Positions 2,932 through 14,711 of a DNA stretch of 26,335 bases are shown in pieces. The stretch is from a virus. The position numbers and the translations under genes were made by a program. Where the stretch lies: the IMG/VR virus record IMGVR_UViG_3300036760_000874, positions 1 to 26,335 of that record; one strand, written 5' to 3'. The notes beneath the pieces are model-generated. The model was not told where the DNA came from. It made no database searches and saw only the letters and a list, made by a program, of their open reading frames with translations. Within the stretch, counting starts at the first letter, position 1. Every line of letters starts with the position of its first letter.

Positions 2932-3297
2932 CTAGGTGATCGTCCGGCAGTCCGCCTCGAGATTCGCGAGATCCTGCGCTACGTTCGCGACGGTGCCCGA
3001 GATGATGTCGAGTTGCAGCGTCGTGCCGTCAAGCGACAGCGTCACCCCCGATGACTTGTCGCGAACGACGGCGTCGATCTCGGCGAGCAGCCGCTTCTTT
3101 ATGGGCTTCGTGTAGTGCTTCTTCCCGGCATCGGCGATCGCCTCGGCGTCCAGACCAAGGCCGATCGTGGAGCACAGCGCCTGCTCGGTCGTGGTGCCGG
3201 ACGCTGGCGGTACCGCCGACACGGATCCGGAAGGACCGTCGCACCCGATGAGGAGCACCCCCAGGACCACCAGGCCTATCGTGATCGTCTGCTTCAT
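2932..3297 (-). CDS. Predicted lipoprotein of the lysogeny operon
   Basis: 121 residues. The N-terminus M-K-Q-T-I-T-I-G-L-V-V-L-G-V-L-L-I-G-C is a lipoprotein signal peptide with lipobox L-L-I-G-C, giving a lipidated Cys19 on the outer face of the membrane. A Ser/Gly/Thr linker and a mixed alpha/beta domain with two further cysteines (C42, C117) follow. Its ATG overlaps the TGA of the integrase gene (ATGA at 3294-3297), so it should be translated from the repressor-integrase transcript in lysogens. Small phage lipoproteins made in the lysogen are known to block superinfecting phage DNA entry or alter the surface; that role here is inference. The signal and lipobox are plain in the sequence. 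Confidence 0.75.
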   Translation of the reverse strand: MKQTITIGLVVLGVLLIGCDGPSGSVSAVPPASGTTTEQALCSTIGLGLDAEAIADAGKKHYTKPIKKRLLAEIDAVVRDKSSGVTLSLDGTTLQLDIISGTVANVAQDLANLEADCRTIT

Positions 3298-4148
3298 CCC
3301 ATCAGACTCCTTTCGAGGGCTGCCTTCATGTTCGAATCCTTCACGCGAGCGTAGCGCTGCACCTGTCCGAGGTCGGCGTGGTTCAGGAAGTCCTTCACCA
3401 GGAGCGGGTCCCGCGTGCGCTCATAGAGGATCGTCGCGGCAGTGTGCCTCGCGAGGTGAGCGTTCACCCTGCCCTCGGGCAGCCCCGCGTCGCGGGCGGC
3501 ATCGCGGAACCAGTCGCCGATCGTATCCTCGTGCCGCCCGATCAGGGTCGATGTCTCTCGGTGTAGCGCCTGGAGCTCCGCGCATGCCTGCAGCGCCCGC
3601 GGCGTGAGCATCACCGAGTAGGGCCGGTCGTTCTTCGCCTTGCGAAAATAGATGTGGTCCCCGGCGCAGTCCTGTGGACGCACGGCCGCCAAAGATCCGA
3701 TACGAGCTCCGGTCTCGAACAGAAGCACGACCGCCCAGCGTCGCATCGCTGGCAGCCGGCGCGCAGCCGCCTCGACGATCGCGGCGATCTCCTCAAGAGA
3801 GAAGTAGTCCGGCGGCGGGTACTTCGGTGCGCGGGCCCGGAGCTCAAGCGTGGGGTTGTGGTCGACGTAGCCCTGGACGGTGGCGAACCGATAGAAGCTC
3901 CGGAGCGCTGCAACGTAGGCCTCTCGCTTCGAGGATCGGGGCGTGACGGATGCGAGGAACCGCTCGCAGACCTCCTCGGTGACCGATTCCGGCGACGTCC
4001 GCGTCCGACGGTAGAACCTCAGCAGGTAGGACTCACGCTGCTCCATCGTCTCCGCGGTGAACTCCCGCGCCGCCATGTGATCGACCCATGCGTCGAGGAG
4101 CGCCCAGAACGAATCGAGCGATCCGGCGATGTGAAGGTGCGCGGGCAC
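3294..4148 (-). CDS. int: Tyrosine recombinase (phage integrase)
   Basis: 284 residues from GTG 4148, chosen because GAGGAAAG lies just upstream and the start follows the repressor stop by one base (TGA-A-GTG). An ATG at 4229 in frame would overlap the repressor by 80 bp and is less likely. Residues about 10-105 are the SAM-like core-binding domain; the catalytic domain follows. Visible catalytic residues are R149 (E-T-G-A-R-I-G), K172 (K-A-K-N-D), H231 and R234 (H-L-A-R-H), H257 (L-N-H-A-D-L) and nucleophile Y266 (Q-R-Y-A-R-V). There is no clear arm-site DNA-binding domain, so it is compact and Xer-like in build. It should integrate and, with a directionality factor not identified here, excise the phage genome. 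Co-expression with the repressor suggests it is made during establishment of lysogeny. Confidence 0.93.
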   Translation of the reverse strand: MPAHLHIAGSLDSFWALLDAWVDHMAAREFTAETMEQRESYLLRFYRRTRTSPESVTEEVCERFLASVTPRSSKREAYVAALRSFYRFATVQGYVDHNPTLELRARAPKYPPPDYFSLEEIAAIVEAAARRLPAMRRWAVVLLFETGARIGSLAAVRPQDCAGDHIYFRKAKNDRPYSVMLTPRALQACAELQALHRETSTLIGRHEDTIGDWFRDAARDAGLPEGRVNAHLARHTAATILYERTRDPLLVKDFLNHADLGQVQRYARVKDSNMKAALERSLMG

Positions 4149-4149
4149 T

Positions 4150-4611
4150 TCACTTTCCTCGCCCCGGCTGTTTATCCCGGCGTTGAGCACGGCGCACGGA
4201 ATCCTGAACCACCTTAGGCTGGGGCGCAAGCTGCATCCCTGGGAGCGCGAGAACCCCTGGCGGTGTTCTCACCGGGTCATCGGGGTTCACGATGACCTCG
4301 AGGTGAGGTCTGCCGGCGGATTTGCCTCCGGCATATGGGGGCGTTTCCCGGAACAGCTCAGCGATGGGCACGCGAAGCGCTCCGGCCAGATCAGCGATTG
4401 TATCGAGCTGCGGCCAACTCGGTAGCGGTTTGGCCGGATCACGACTCGCCTCCAGGGCCCAGATCGTGTTCTTCGACACTCCCGATTCCGACGCGAGCCC
4501 ATCCTGGGTCAACTTCGGGACTCGCTGAGTTCGGAGGCGGTGGACGTTACGGCCCAAGACGCGTCTGGGGTCGGGACCTCGTTCCTGTAGCGGCTCGATG
4601 GGAGATTGCAT
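4150..4611 (-). CDS. XRE-family (Cro/CI-type) repressor
   Basis: 153 residues from ATG 4611; the frame continues upstream to 4833, but this start sits right after a G-rich ribosome-site-like run and just below the leftward promoter. Residues about 18-86 form an HTH_3 domain: R-N-V-H-R-L-R, L-T-Q-D-G-L-A-S-E-S-G-V-S-K-N-T-I-W-A-L-E, then a helix ending V-P-I-A-E-L-F. The last ~65 residues are proline- and arginine-rich and show no LexA/S24 autopeptidase motif, so RecA-driven self-cleavage is unlikely. It is transcribed away from the Cro-like gene and translationally linked to int. It probably binds the palindrome at 4646-4664 and controls both promoters. An 8-7-8 inverted repeat (4275-4297) lies inside its 3' half. 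Confidence 0.85.
   Translation of the reverse strand: MQSPIEPLQERGPDPRRVLGRNVHRLRTQRVPKLTQDGLASESGVSKNTIWALEASRDPAKPLPSWPQLDTIADLAGALRVPIAELFRETPPYAGGKSAGRPHLEVIVNPDDPVRTPPGVLALPGMQLAPQPKVVQDSVRRAQRRDKQPGRGK
4275..4297. repeat. 8-7-8 perfect inverted repeat inside the repressor gene (candidate attP core)
   Basis: Arms GGTCATCG (4275-4282) and CGATGACC (4290-4297) are exact reverse complements around a 7-bp centre GGGTTCA. Tyrosine recombinase core sites are commonly two inverted arms around a 6-8 bp crossover region. This one lies about 130 bp from the int start and codes for repressor residues 105-113, beyond the HTH. In integration-dependent-immunity phages such as BPs, attP lies inside the repressor gene next to int. 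The symmetry is seen; the att role is inference. Confidence 0.35.
4553..4570. promoter_or_regulatory. Near-palindrome CCCAAGACG/CGTCTGGGG, possible weak second operator
   Basis: An 18-bp near-perfect palindrome (one mismatched pair) with the same CAAGAC half-site as the main operator. It lies about 50 bp inside the repressor coding region. A further half-site CCAAGAC follows the operator at 4682-4688, inside the Cro-like gene. Three related sites would allow cooperative repressor binding, but short CAAGACG words also occur by chance in this genome. Confidence 0.3.
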
Positions 4612-4620
4612 CGCCCCCCG

Positions 4621-4649
4621 AGGATAACCACCCAAAATACCGTTGACAA
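4621..4649 (-). promoter_or_regulatory. Leftward repressor/integrase promoter
   Basis: On the minus strand TTGTCA (4649-4644) and TATCCT (4626-4621) are separated by exactly 17 bp, a good sigma-A match. The predicted start point is near 4614, only about three bases before the repressor ATG at 4611, so the message would be nearly leaderless. That is common for phage repressors and in actinobacteria. The -35 box overlaps that of the opposing promoter. Confidence 0.55.
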
Positions 4650-4671
4650 GACCCAAAGTCTTGTGAATACT
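4643..4671 (+). promoter_or_regulatory. Rightward early promoter
   Basis: A consensus TTGACA at 4643-4648 is followed, after 17 bp, by AATACT (4666-4671, four of six matches to TATAAT). The predicted start is near 4678, coinciding with an in-frame GTG of the Cro-like gene. The palindromic operator covers the -35 end and the spacer, so bound repressor should block polymerase here. Confidence 0.55.
4646..4664. promoter_or_regulatory. Palindromic operator of the lysogeny switch
   Basis: ACAAGAC (4646-4652) and GTCTTGT (4658-4664) are perfect inverted 7-mers around CCAAA. The site sits between the divergent repressor and Cro-like genes and overlaps both -35 boxes. It is the natural binding site for a dimeric HTH repressor or the Cro-like protein. 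Confidence 0.65.
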
Positions 4672-4677
4672 ACCCAT

Positions 4678-4881
4678 GTGTCCAAGACGCGGTCCCAACC
4701 CGATGTGACCTTCGGCCCCAAACGAGGCGCAGGGAAGACTCGAGCGATGGTGCTCGAACTTTGGCGGGAGGGAAAGAACACCCGCAAGATCGCCACGGAC
4801 CTCGAGATCTCGACCCAGGCGGTCAATCAGCATCTTCGCCGGCTGCGACTGGACGGCGAGCTCGAGGAGAAGGCCTCGTGA
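4678..4881 (+). CDS. Cro-like small helix-turn-helix protein
   Basis: The HTH reads L-W-R-E-G-K-N-T-R-K-I-A-T-D-L-E-I-S-T-Q-A-V-N-Q-H-L-R-R-L-R, a typical three-helix unit resembling sigma-region-4 or LuxR/MarR-type folds. Start choice is open. The frame is open from ATG 4606, but that would lie upstream of the promoter and overlap the repressor start. GTG 4678 coincides with the predicted transcription start (leaderless), and ATG 4747 has GGGAAG about 9 nt upstream. I use 4678 (67 residues). It is the first gene of the rightward operon and divergent from the repressor, the classic position of Cro, an early regulator that opposes repressor synthesis or controls excision. It lacks sequence features specific to Cro itself. 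Confidence 0.7.
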   Translation: MSKTRSQPDVTFGPKRGAGKTRAMVLELWREGKNTRKIATDLEISTQAVNQHLRRLRLDGELEEKAS

Positions 4882-6562: not shown

Positions 6563-6771
6563 TGCCGCGCCAACGAAAGCACTCGACGTCGACCGATCAC
6601 CGCCAGGTCTATGAGGCACTGATCGAACTCTCCGACGTCGAGCGCCACATCATCTCCCCGGGCGAGCTCTTCACGCAGACGAAGCTCGATGAGAAGGATC
6701 CGCCATACCGCGTCGGCTTCTGGCCCGTCTGCCAGGAGTGCCGGCCCTTCAAGCTCCAGGAGTCCGCGTGA
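6562..6771 (+). CDS. Small phage protein, unknown
   Basis: 69 residues from ATG 6562, joined to the broken membrane gene by a TGATG overlap. The N-terminus is basic (P-R-Q-R-K-H) and the middle is an acidic helix (Y-E-A-L-I-E-L-S-D-V-E-R-H). The C-terminus carries one C-x2-C pair (P-V-C-Q-E-C-R-P-F), half of a zinc knuckle, which might pair with another subunit. It belongs to the run of small, overlapping early genes. No function can be given. Confidence 0.55.
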   Translation: MPRQRKHSTSTDHRQVYEALIELSDVERHIISPGELFTQTKLDEKDPPYRVGFWPVCQECRPFKLQESA

Positions 6772-7070
6772 GTCTCCTCCACCGCATGACGCCGGCGGAG
6801 ATCCTCGACTTCGAATCGATCTCCGATCACGGCGTGCCGAAGGACCGCGCGATCCGCGAGCGCTTCGATTGCTCACCGTTCGTCTACACCGCGCACCTGT
6901 TCCGCGTGGTGGATCTCCCGGAGGCGCTCCTGATCGCTCCCGAGCTGGTGGCACGGCTTCGCCGGCGTCGCGAGCGTCTCCGAGCTCTGCGGACACCCGG
7001 CGTGTCCGACATCCCGCGCGCCCACATCGGGCAGCGCCGGTTGCCGTTCGACGGAAGGAGCACGGCGTGA
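6768..7070 (+). CDS. DUF3263-like protein
   Basis: 100 residues from GTG 6768, a GTGA overlap with the gene before. The pattern M-T-P-A-E-I-L-D-F-E-S, then A-I-R-E-R-F-D-C-S, then Y-x-A-H-L-F-R-V-V-D-L-P-E-A-L, then P-E-L-V-A-R-L-R-R-R-R-E-R-L-R follows the DUF3263 family closely. That family is small, all-helical, found in actinobacteria and their phages, with an HTH-like look (a recognition helix around R-E-R-F-D-C-S-P-F). A DNA-binding regulatory role is likely but not shown. Family membership is fairly sure; about 35 basic residues follow the domain. Confidence 0.7.
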   Translation: MSLLHRMTPAEILDFESISDHGVPKDRAIRERFDCSPFVYTAHLFRVVDLPEALLIAPELVARLRRRRERLRALRTPGVSDIPRAHIGQRRLPFDGRSTA

Positions 7071-7201
7071 AGGGCTTGTTGAAGTTCGTGCAATTCCTGC
7101 TCGAGATTGGTATCCCCGTCGGGATCTTGTTGGCGGTGTGGGCGATCGTGCTCGACCAGATCGACACGTATCGCTGGCGGAAGGCCAAGCGCTCCGCATG
7201 A
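7067..7201 (+). CDS. 44-residue single-span membrane protein
   Basis: Starts at GTG 7067 with a strong GGAAGGAG ribosome site 6 nt upstream, one of the few genes in this run with a clear one. A helix V-K-G-L-L-K-F-V-Q-F-L-L-E-I-G-I-P-V-G-I-L-L-A-V-W-A-I-V-L spans the membrane, and the basic end Y-R-W-R-K-A-K-R-S-A sets the C-terminus inside. Tiny membrane proteins in phage early regions can act in host membrane targeting or exclusion; nothing here identifies which. It overlaps the next gene by an ATGA. Confidence 0.6.
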   Translation: MKGLLKFVQFLLEIGIPVGILLAVWAIVLDQIDTYRWRKAKRSA

Positions 7202-8019
7202 GCAAGCCTCGCCGGGATTCGACCGGGATGGGGGAGCGCCTAACCTGGTGCCGCAAGGCGCGCCCGCAACCATCGAGCGTGGGCGGCCGCACGGTGGCGG
7301 CCGCGGCGCAGAAGGCGGTGCTGTGGTGTCTCGTCGACCACTCCAACGCCGACGGCACCTCCTACCCGAAGCAGGACACCATCGCGGAGGAGGCCTGTCT
7401 TTCACGTCAGAGCGTGAACGCCGCGATCTCCGCGCTCGAGGCCCAGGGCTTCCTCACGGTCGCGATCGACCCCGAGGCCCGGCGCTCGAGGATCTACTGG
7501 CTCGATCTGTCGCATATCGCGACAGATGCCGGATCCGAGCCTGTCGCAGGAGGCGACACGTCCTCTGACCTGCAGGCTTCCGTCGACCGTCCCAGCCCCC
7601 AGGAGCATCTGTCGCAGGAGGCGACACGTCGCCAGGTGGGACGTGTCGCCTCCTGCGACACCGATCTGTCGCAGGAGGCGACACCCTATAAGAAGCCTCT
7701 TCTGAACCCTGCTCTTGCTTCGGCTAGCGCCGAAGGCAAGAGCGCGCCGAAGACGACAAACCAGATCCTCGCCTCGATCCTGCTCGATGAGAGCTCGACC
7801 GCCCAACACTTCCTCCGTCGCCTCGTCGAGGTCGACGAGCGTTGGGCTGAAATCACGCCCGGCGTGCTGATCAAGCTCGGGCGGACCTACGGCGCGCCGA
7901 CCCTCGTCGAGGCCCTCGGTTACATGCGCGAAGAAGGCCGCGGCGGCATCGACCCGTACCCGTACCTCGAGTCGGTCTGCGTTCGGATCGATGGCGAGCA
8001 TCAGGCGGTCTCGGCATGA
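7198..8019 (+). CDS. Replication-initiator-like winged-helix protein containing an iteron array
   Basis: 273 residues from ATG 7198 (ATGA overlap). Residues about 30-100 form a helix-turn-helix of the HTH_36 type seen in phage replication proteins: A-Q-K-A-V-L-W-C-L-V-D-H-S, then Y-P-K-Q-D-T-I-A-E-E-A-C-L-S-R-Q-S-V-N-A-A-I-S-A-L-E, then a wing. Residues ~105-165 are an unstructured stretch encoded by the palindromic repeats. A helical C-terminal domain (residues ~180-265) follows, with a P-Y-P-Y-L-E-S-V ending like primosome-type proteins. By analogy with lambda O, it would bind repeats in its own gene and recruit the host helicase. No helicase or primase is seen in this window, so it would depend on host machinery. 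Domain call moderate; initiator role supported mostly by the repeats. Confidence 0.7.
   Translation: MSKPRRDSTGMGERLTWCRKARPQPSSVGGRTVAAAAQKAVLWCLVDHSNADGTSYPKQDTIAEEACLSRQSVNAAISALEAQGFLTVAIDPEARRSRIYWLDLSHIATDAGSEPVAGGDTSSDLQASVDRPSPQEHLSQEATRRQVGRVASCDTDLSQEATPYKKPLLNPALASASAEGKSAPKTTNQILASILLDESSTAQHFLRRLVEVDERWAEITPGVLIKLGRTYGAPTLVEALGYMREEGRGGIDPYPYLESVCVRIDGEHQAVSA
7505..7683. repeat. Iteron array, candidate phage replication origin
   Basis: Five copies of a 17-bp palindromic unit TGTCGC-N5-GCGACA start at 7508, 7542, 7610, 7644 and 7667. Four have AGGAG/CTCCT in the centre (the copy at 7644 inverted); the first has ATATC and longer 9-bp arms (7505-7527). Start spacings are 34, 68, 34 and 23, so the array is phased. 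The copies fall in different codon frames and encode unlike peptides, so selection acts on DNA rather than protein. Their place inside the initiator-like gene parallels lambda ori within O. A slightly AT-richer run (ccctataagaag) follows. Confidence 0.75.
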
Positions 8020-11314: not shown

Positions 11315-11668
11315 ATGGCGAAGTGCAGCGATCCGAGATGTGCGGAGCGTGGCGGCAAGGCCGGACATCGCGGACGCCACCGCGGCACGCAACTGGCTCG
11401 AAGAGGCCAGGTTCCAGGGCGCGGCCCGATCCCAACCCAACCCCCGAAGCAGACGCCCACGTCCTCAGGAGTACGTCAGGGCGTGATCGAGATCGGGGAC
11501 GGCCTAATGGTCGTCCTCACACGCAAGGCGACCGAATGGCTCCGCGATCTTGCGATCGCCGGCGCGGGCCCGCAACCGACCGACGTCTTCAGCGAAGAAT
11601 TCGACGCATGGCGGGAGCGCGCCCTCGTCGTTAAGGAGCTCACCGACGCACTCAAGGGAGACGACTGA
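11315..11668 (+). CDS. Phage protein, unknown, before parB
   Basis: 117 residues from ATG 11315, chosen because GGAGG lies 9 nt upstream (11301-11305). The frame is open further up and GTG 11216, which overlaps the previous stop, would add 33 residues. The first part has K-C-S-D-P-R-C and basic, proline-rich sequence. The second part (residues ~52-117) is a compact domain: G-V-I-E-I-G-D-G-L-M-V-V-L-T, then a helical end W-R-E-R-A-L-V-V-K-E-L-T-D-A-L. It joins parB by TGATG. No known family recognised. Confidence 0.5.
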   Translation: MAKCSDPRCAERGGKAGHRGRHRGTQLARRGQVPGRGPIPTQPPKQTPTSSGVRQGVIEIGDGLMVVLTRKATEWLRDLAIAGAGPQPTDVFSEEFDAWRERALVVKELTDALKGDD

Positions 11669-12987
11669 TGCAAGAGATGGTCCTGCTTGAAGATCTGCAC
11701 GTAGTGGCCACCAATCCGCGCCGCGGCGTGGGCGACGTTCGCGAGCTCGCGGCATCGATCAAGGCGGTCGGCATCATCGAGCCGCTCGTGGTTACGATGA
11801 CGAACGGCGTGATCGCGGGATCCAGACGACTCGCGGCGGCTCGCATGGCCGGCCTCCTGGAGGTCCCCGTCATCCGGCGCGACGCGGATGTGCGCGAGCT
11901 CCAGGAGCTGATGCTGATCGAGAATCTGCAACGCGCCGACCTGGCGCCACTCGAAGAGGCGGCCGCGCTCCAGGTGCTCGTCGACATCGGCGCGGAGCAG
12001 AAGGACATCGGCAAACGGATCGGGCGTTCGCAGTCCTGGGTCTCGAAGCGTCTCTCGCTCTTGGCCTTGCCGGAAAAGGCCCAGGAGGCCCTATATTCCG
12101 GGGGAATATCGATCCACGATGCCGAAGAGCTCGCGAAGATCGCCTCGACGCCCAAGATCGTCGATCGGATCGTCGATCGCATCGCCGCCGGCGAGAAGAT
12201 CACCGTCGGCGCGGCAGTCGGCGTGGAGCAGCGCTCTGAAGAGCTGCACGCCGAGCTCGAGGCGCGCAAGGCCGAGCTCGAAGCCGAAGGCAAGACGGTC
12301 CTCGTCGAGGAACGCGGGGCGCCGATCGGCGGGCTGCGCGATCTGTGGAACACAAGTGACCAGCAGAGGCATGAGAGCGAGCCGTGTGTCGCGGTCAAGC
12401 TGCGGATCGGCTTCAACCACATCGACGAGGAGCTCGTCTGCACCGATCCCGATCGCCACGCCGATGCTGATGACGTCCGCCAGCCCGACCGCGCGAGAGA
12501 ACGCGCCGAACGCGAGGCGGAGGAGAAGGTGCTCGAGCTCGCGAAGCAAGGCCGCCTCGCAGCCTCGCAGGAGATCTGCCGGAAGATGCCCATGAAGCAG
12601 ACCACCGAGCTCATCGAGCTCGCCATTATCGCAGGCGCCAGCGATGATTGGAACGACTACACGCGTGCTCTTGCCGTCCTCGAGCTGCCCGTGCCCGAGG
12701 ATGGCAAGAGCGATCCGCTCGGCCTGTCTGATAACGGCGAAGAGCAGGCGATCCTCGAACAGCACGCGGCGCACTCGGACAAGGCGCGCCACCACGCCGC
12801 GCTCGCGCTCAGCATGGCCCGCATCGAGGGACTCCTCACTTGGACGCTCTGGACGGAGACGCTCGTGCAGCGCTACTTCGCGCTGCTGGCGATCGCCGGC
12901 TACGAGCCGTCTGAGGCCGAACGCGCGAAGCTCGAGCCGCCGTCGGCGGAAGACGACGATGACGAGCCAGCCATAACCGATGGCTGA
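11668..12987 (+). CDS. parB: ParB/Spo0J-family protein
   Basis: 439 residues from ATG 11668 (TGATG overlap). The N-terminal ParB nuclease/CTPase domain shows N-P-R-R at 16-19, G-S-R-R-L at 51-55 and E-N-L-Q-R at 85-89, the motifs used for CTP binding in true ParB. The HTH follows (about 112-137: D-I-G-K-R-I-G-R-S-Q-S-W-V-S-K-R-L-S-L-L). The C-terminal half is longer than in chromosomal ParB and helical, with acidic tail E-D-D-D-D-E. No ParA is found beside it, so it may act as a transcription factor or host-takeover protein rather than as a segregation partner; or ParA may lie outside the window. Its 3' end overlaps the next gene by 8 bp. Family call is strong. Confidence 0.85.
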   Translation: MQEMVLLEDLHVVATNPRRGVGDVRELAASIKAVGIIEPLVVTMTNGVIAGSRRLAAARMAGLLEVPVIRRDADVRELQELMLIENLQRADLAPLEEAAALQVLVDIGAEQKDIGKRIGRSQSWVSKRLSLLALPEKAQEALYSGGISIHDAEELAKIASTPKIVDRIVDRIAAGEKITVGAAVGVEQRSEELHAELEARKAELEAEGKTVLVEERGAPIGGLRDLWNTSDQQRHESEPCVAVKLRIGFNHIDEELVCTDPDRHADADDVRQPDRARERAEREAEEKVLELAKQGRLAASQEICRKMPMKQTTELIELAIIAGASDDWNDYTRALAVLELPVPEDGKSDPLGLSDNGEEQAILEQHAAHSDKARHHAALALSMARIEGLLTWTLWTETLVQRYFALLAIAGYEPSEAERAKLEPPSAEDDDDEPAITDG

Positions 12988-14633: not shown

Positions 14634-14709
14634 AGCTGAGTAGGGGAGCACGGTCGTCCCCATCGGCCTCATAAGCCGAAGATCGTGGGTTCGAATCCCA
14701 CCTCAGCAA
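14634..14709 (+). tRNA. tRNA with CAU anticodon, initiator-like features
   Basis: Cloverleaf by hand: acceptor 14634-14640/14702-14708, D stem GGGG/CCCC (14643-14646/14658-14661), anticodon stem TCGGC/GCCGA (14663-14667/14675-14679) with loop CTCATAA and CAT at 14670-14672, variable AGATC, T arm GTGGG-TTCGAAT-CCCAC (14685-14701), discriminator A at 14709. No CCA is encoded. Two marks of bacterial initiator tRNA are present: position 1-72 cannot pair (A-A), and the 11-24 pair is purine-pyrimidine (G-C). The 29-31 stem is GGC rather than the usual GGG, and the D arm has an extra possible A-T pair. It could be tRNA-fMet-like, elongator Met, or Ile2 after lysidine editing. The T-loop and anticodon arm are certain; charging identity is not. 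Confidence 0.85.
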
Positions 14710-14711
14710 CG

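Follow-up and report, generated by a model that had tools for sequence, protein, structure and literature searches.

Palindromic units within the gene of an O-like winged-helix protein form a candidate lambda-type origin in a viral contig

Introduction

Few phages have a mapped origin of replication. The closest described systems are those of lambda (ori within gene O), P22 (gene 18), phi80 (gene 15) and the Stx phages, in which palindromic iterons lie in the middle of the gene for a winged-helix initiator. The iterons of lambda-type origins are spaced 20-24 bp apart and AT-rich DNA follows directly after them, as described (PMC7466680) and as seen in sequence comparison. Lambda O, P22 gp18 and phi80 gp15 match the family Phage_rep_O (PF04492) strongly. 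HTH_36 proteins have been listed as replication initiators of the small plasmids pYEE7 and pYEE8 of Paracoccus yeei (PMC6209633, a text in which the word 'iteron' is absent), and HTH_36 is named as a plasmid initiator also in PMC4224046. Where named phages carry members of the HTH_36 and PHROG O-like families, the annotation reads O protein or primosomal protein. For the HTH_36 family, no description of in-gene iterons was found in the literature; as subscription journals were poorly covered, this absence is no proof of novelty.

The locus studied here has the same arrangement as these origins. The window is the whole IMG/VR contig IMGVR_UViG_3300036760_000874 (26,335 bases), which is classed as linear and may be incomplete. 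Judged by sequence, the array that it carries is a new type of putative iteron within the known lambda-like origin design, with an initiator outside Phage_rep_O.

Results and discussion

Palindromic array in the window

Profile searches identified a RusA-type resolvase on the contig, terminase, portal and head genes in its right-hand part, and the two minus-strand genes listed first below together with the features of the array and its surroundings.

3294-4229, minus strand: integrase (family and PHROG profile matches)
4150-4833, minus strand: helix-turn-helix regulator (family and PHROG profile matches)
7198-8019, plus strand: initiator gene, 273 aa; winged helix at about residues 27-102, a linker predicted to be disordered, and a small helical C-terminal region
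7508-7524: iteron 1, TGTCGC-ATATC-GCGACA, with perfect 9-base arms ATCTGTCGC/GCGACAGAT
7542-7558: iteron 2, TGTCGC-AGGAG-GCGACA, exact match
7610-7626: iteron 3, TGTCGC-AGGAG-GCGACA, exact match
7627-7643: decayed iteron, CGTCGC-CAGGT-GGGACG (CGTCGCCAGGTGGGACG), 9 of 12 bases
7644-7660: iteron 4, TGTCGC-CTCCT-GCGACA, exact match with inverted centre
7667-7683: iteron 5, TGTCGC-AGGAG-GCGACA, 23 bp past iteron 4
7684-7728: AT-richer stretch directly after the array, candidate unwinding element
7711-7743, plus strand: strong inverted repeat GCTCTTGCTTCGGC-TAGC-GCCGAAGGCAAGAGC, single-strand fold z -3.4

In agreement with the original prediction, all five TGTCGC-N5-GCGACA units are exact, with starts at 7508, 7542, 7610, 7644 and 7667 and spacings of 34, 68, 34 and 23; the first unit is indeed distinct in its centre and its longer arms, and one unit, the fourth, is inverted (centre CTCCT compared to AGGAG). 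The exact unit is absent from the rest of the contig, and not one copy was obtained in any of 100 dinucleotide shuffles. A decayed sixth unit had been overlooked. It lies exactly 17 bp from each neighbour, so that the units at 7610, 7627 and 7644 abut, and the full series of spacings is 34, 68, 17, 17 and 23. The spacings are best read as a 17-bp register (34 = 2x17, 68 = 4x17) followed by one 23-bp step. Helical phasing was considered and rejected: 34 and 68 bp correspond to 3.2 and 6.5 turns of 10.5 bp and hence not to whole turns, and the spacings follow 17 bp and 21-25 bp instead. Compared to lambda, both the unit (TGTCGC-N5-GCGACA versus an ATCCCTC-type unit) and the abutting of some units at 17 bp are different.

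The units had been described as lying in different reading frames and encoding unlike peptides, of which the first part stands and the second does so only in part. Two frames are used, three when the decayed unit is counted: units 1, 3 and 5 lie in one frame and encode LSHIAT, LSQEAT and LSQEAT, units 2 and 4 lie in another and encode VAGGDT and VASCDT, and the decayed unit occupies the third. The GC skew, suggested as a check, was uninformative about the start of replication: it has no inflection at 7.6 kb, and its cumulative curve turns at ~10.5-11 kb at the nearest.

The encoded protein

The assignment of the surrounding gene to an HTH_36-type protein was confirmed (PF13730, E 2e-10, 40.6 bits with a curated cut-off of 25). 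Its best PHROG match is phrog_391, 'replication initiation O-like' (E 2.8e-13), and all ten of its best PHROG matches are replication-initiation or primosomal families, whereas the Pfam profile search gave no match to Phage_rep_O. At the similarity limit used, none of the plasmid records encodes a relative. Most likely the gene starts at the ATG at 7198, so that the array would encode residues 104-162, i.e. the beginning of the linker. In an AlphaFold2 model calculated from ten aligned sequences, the winged helix has pLDDT values mostly above 90 and the linker values below 50, from which residues 104-162 are predicted to be disordered. The PDB folds closest to the model are mostly winged-helix MarR proteins. 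By eye the C-terminal part had given a DnaD-like impression, which was discarded after profile searches without any such match; this region matched no family in the profile searches. The recognition helix is LSRQSVNAAISAL. It has no basic residue two positions past the conserved V/I, while most other helices of the TGTCGC class have one; a rule that such a residue specifies TGTCGC was therefore dropped, as the window itself breaks it.

The unit in other viral loci

A viral collection was searched for two copies of the unit 2-32 bp apart, with a control of equal composition in which each arm was reversed. The tandem pair was found at 40 viral loci and the control at none. At 36 of the 40 loci the array lies within an ORF whose winged-helix domain is related to that of the window, and nine of ten representative proteins scanned had replication-initiation PHROG matches, the exception being L048. 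The 36 winged-helix genes fall into at least seven lineages (clustering at 50% domain identity), spot-checked pairs being 18-51% identical. As these loci were selected via the motif, the result ties the motif to initiator-like genes; it does not mean that the motif is a general feature of initiators. The nearest relative of the window in the viral collection, L015, has the helix LSSRTV and the half-site GTCGCAA.

Arrays in genes selected by protein similarity

Since motif-selected loci are circular evidence for the anatomy, a second set of genes was drawn from bacterial genomes (HTH_36 or PHROG profile) and from named phages with protein similarity as the sole criterion; the HMM that located the domain in them had been seeded with the window protein and the motif-selected proteins. 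The 360 nt from the domain end were scanned blindly for recurring palindromes of any sequence (arms of 5, spacer of 3-9) and compared with codon shuffles, calling an array at p <0.01 after removal of sequences with more than 70% domain identity. An in-gene array was detected in 38 of 122 non-redundant genes; for the control ORFs taken from these loci the figure was 2 of 121 (Fisher 7e-11). With a smaller set under less strict filtering, a previous run had yielded 28/128 and 3/132. Where the protein continues for at least 90 residues past the domain, the fraction is 33/82. The genes without array may encode regulators or plasmid Reps, or their arrays may be too decayed or located elsewhere.

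Run on known origins as positive controls, the blind scan recovered the four annotated iterons of lambda O at their exact positions and, in P22 gene 18, four units beginning at the annotated origin; in phi80 gene 15 the annotated sites came out as the second family, the best family being in an overlapping register. Together with the AT-richer step described below, this bears out the likeness to a lambda ori within O that had been noted for the window. The arms vary widely among the arrays (TGTGC, TGGTG, GGAAC, GGTCA, GGTCG, CGGCA and others), and most O-like lineages have arms other than TGTCGC. Homologous genes thus keep palindromes at the DNA level and in the same place, each with its own arm sequence; homologues keeping the peptide and losing the repeats had been named as the refuting outcome, and the opposite was seen. 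In 31 of 42 array genes the units are spread over two or three reading frames, which supports the earlier proposal that the repetition is maintained at the DNA level. Runs of about 17 followed by about 22 bp also recur in related genes, such as 34-17-17-22-22-22 (L085), 17-17-17-21-23-22 (L198) and 18-18-18-23-24 (L161), and of the 37 non-redundant arrays with at least three units, 31 end with a spacing of 21-25 bp.

Among named phages, SfV, RothD, ZF40, LESphi3, Labrenzia phage V1 and Pam5 all (6/6) have the winged-helix type and the array position of the window. Unlike the window they have their own arms, e.g. TGTGC, TGCCA, GTGCA or GGTCA; Labrenzia phage V1 comes nearest to the window unit, with 11 of 12 bases at two sites. 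In the public records of Pseudanabaena phage Pam5 (L187, 878-1480) and Pseudomonas phage PseuP_224 (L193, about 850-1310), the annotation lacks the part of the initiator gene that encodes the winged helix.

AT-richer step after the array

Directly after the last unit, the stretch 7684-7728 has an AT content of 0.49 compared to 0.33 gene-wide, which is modest in absolute terms but corresponds to the 99th percentile of the frame's 45-nt windows. The same step is seen in 34 of 35 protein-selected array genes, where the AT content of the 45 nt past the last unit exceeds that of the gene (mean +0.13, Wilcoxon 3e-9). At matched offsets, array-less winged-helix genes are AT-richer in 33 of 59 cases and so lack the step. 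In array genes it is limited to the first 45 nt past the array. Lambda has an inverted repeat at the place corresponding to that at 7711-7743. The idea that a conserved hairpin past the AT step is a third element of such origins in general was nevertheless rejected, since array genes showed no significant enrichment relative to array-less winged-helix genes. Six hairpins with a C(TANC)G loop and a stem of at least 5 lie in winged-helix genes, always 124-262 nt past the domain, out of 15 in 1.37 Mb on both strands; this pattern was spotted post hoc.

Recognition helix and half-site

If each protein reads its own gene, its half-sites are expected to follow its recognition helix, and agreement would be indirect support for binding. 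The similarity of the recognition helices was compared with that of the half-sites in a partial Mantel test controlling for the similarity of the rest of the domain and for GC difference. For the 38 protein-selected genes a partial r of 0.158 (P 0.001) was determined, which rose to 0.204 (P 0.0002) once the motif-selected genes were added, while an earlier subset had given 0.15-0.20 (P 0.0015-0.009); the main possible confounder of these values is common descent at a finer scale than the correction captures. The co-variation is small in size yet consistent. As examples, chosen post hoc and from different lineages, the helices VTDRTV and VTDRAV go with GGAAC, LSRRGV, VSRRTA and MSERQV with TGGTGAA, YSESSV and CSESTV with GGGGTCA, and HR[AS][ST]V with TGTCGC or GGTCGC, as does the window helix LSRQSV with TGTCGC. 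This suggests that the DNA-reading helix and the in-gene sites change together across distant phages. Whether the relation amounts to a readable code in HTH_36/O-like initiators of phages from several phyla, in which the residues at the helix start would set the half-site in their own gene and the TGTCGC, TGGTGAA and GGAAC classes would have been reached or kept independently at ~20-50% domain identity, we consider an even bet. If so, a phage origin would be predictable from the sequence of its initiator alone.

Proposed mechanism and alternative explanations

The array is in all probability (roughly 86%) the iteron cluster of a lambda-type origin located within the gene of its own initiator and bound by the encoded protein. 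A dimer of the winged-helix protein from 7198-8019 would bind each 17-bp palindrome, and several dimers on the array would form a nucleoprotein complex resembling the lambda O-some, which would strain and open the adjacent AT-richer DNA at 7684-7728. Recruitment of the host replicative helicase would then fall to the C-terminal region or to a partner protein that escaped recognition. Several observations weigh against this reading: the AT-richer stretch is only about half AT, the C-terminal region matches no family, the GC skew does not turn at the array, most O-like lineages have other arms, and the window helix lacks the basic residue of most TGTCGC-class helices. The anatomy of the array and the co-variation of helix and half-site make such a lambda-like working most likely, with helicase recruitment as the least supported step, because the scan of contig proteins, which took in less than the full set of small ORFs, recognised neither a helicase nor a loader of the P, DnaC or DnaB type. 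Compared with lambda, a P-like partner was thus not recognised. In RothD and ZF40, a helicase or P-like gene comes after the initiator gene.

The sites could instead be operators: this protein or another regulator would bind there, inside the gene, and adjust its expression or the copy number, with replication starting elsewhere. HTH_36 does resemble MarR-type regulators, and some bacterial TGTCGC-N5-GCGACA pairs sit outside initiator genes, as operators might. However, the array begins 310 bp into the coding region rather than at a promoter, a set of five to seven sites with an AT step behind it is more like an origin than an operator, the gene matches replication-initiation families, and the origins of lambda, P22 and phi80 have the same anatomy, so that we regard this explanation as unlikely. 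Less likely still is a parS-like partition site for the ParB homologue encoded at 11668-12987. Known parS sites are palindromes of a length similar to the array units, and a ParB-family protein is encoded on the contig, but the array lies ~4 kb from parB within the initiator gene, 36 viral initiator-like genes from distant lineages have its unit as well, and the half-sites track the recognition helix of the initiator itself.

Two further readings place the function in the transcript or the protein. Each unit could fold into an RNA hairpin with a 6-bp stem and a 5-nt loop that controls translation or attenuation; yet the spacer changes from 3 to 9 nt between families, the centres are variable, the arms co-vary with a DNA-recognition helix and the AT step is a feature of the DNA, which makes this very improbable. 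A repeat at the protein level might be read from the identical peptides encoded by units 3 and 5 and the similar one of unit 1. Against such a repeat, or a chance outcome of codon usage, stand the distribution of the units over two frames (three with the decayed one), the lack of the exact unit in all shuffled contigs and a codon-shuffle p of ~0.002-0.005, the smallest attainable value, and we consider it the least probable explanation of all.

With the lambda-type origin as the preferred reading, the anatomy common to the family and the relation between helix and iteron are the part worth following. Winged helix, palindrome array in the linker and AT step together offer a route to finding origins from sequence only, and this route covers a large, mostly uncharacterised initiator family that extends from Actinomycetota to Gammaproteobacteria, well beyond the lambdoid Phage_rep_O. 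As each gene holds both a DNA reader and its own targets, the target choice of winged-helix recognition helices could be learned from this family as a natural data set, which also supplies initiator-origin pairs that can be tested directly in mini-replicons.

The palindrome in bacterial genomes and other genes of the contig

A search of bacterial genomes gave 24 loci with the tandem pair, which were mostly other things and were left out of the evidence. In Treponema genomes the palindrome occurs in tandem with 48-bp spacing (L061 1268-1332, L069 3990-4054, L080 4813-4877), in genes that presumably resemble those of ORF6N proteins; all repeats are in one frame and repeat the peptide MSQ(F/I)ATS, and this repetition may be at the protein level. 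Pairs of TGTCGC-N5-GCGACA with 32-35 bp spacing and unlike centres lie outside recognised initiator genes in proteobacterial genomes (L066 1975-2023, L070 582-633, L078 502-550, L083 4663-4713) and are possible operators of regulators. Regular arrays of greater length, made of the palindrome or of close variants and with periods of 40, 46-47 and 51-52 bp, were seen in contigs of Pasteurellaceae, Oscillospiraceae and Myxococcales (L074 1-137, L081 4764-4980, L065 2641-2843, L075 7355-7681), with no tie to initiator genes seen.

The ParB-family protein of the contig (11668-12987) has ParB_N, HTH_ParB and KorB matches, and no ParA was recognised among the contig proteins scanned; a specific link of the array to this ParB was considered and set aside, its position giving no support. 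Upstream of the initiator gene, 6738-7070 encodes a DUF3263 protein (E 2e-14). As this family is mostly one of actinobacteria, it gives a weak hint of an actinobacterial host. The sole tRNA gene of the contig, a tRNA-Met with anticodon CAT, is located at 14634-14710. A 766-aa ORF at 19359-21659 matches a head maturation protease with its N-terminal part and a major head protein with its C-terminal part, and is probably a protease-capsid fusion.
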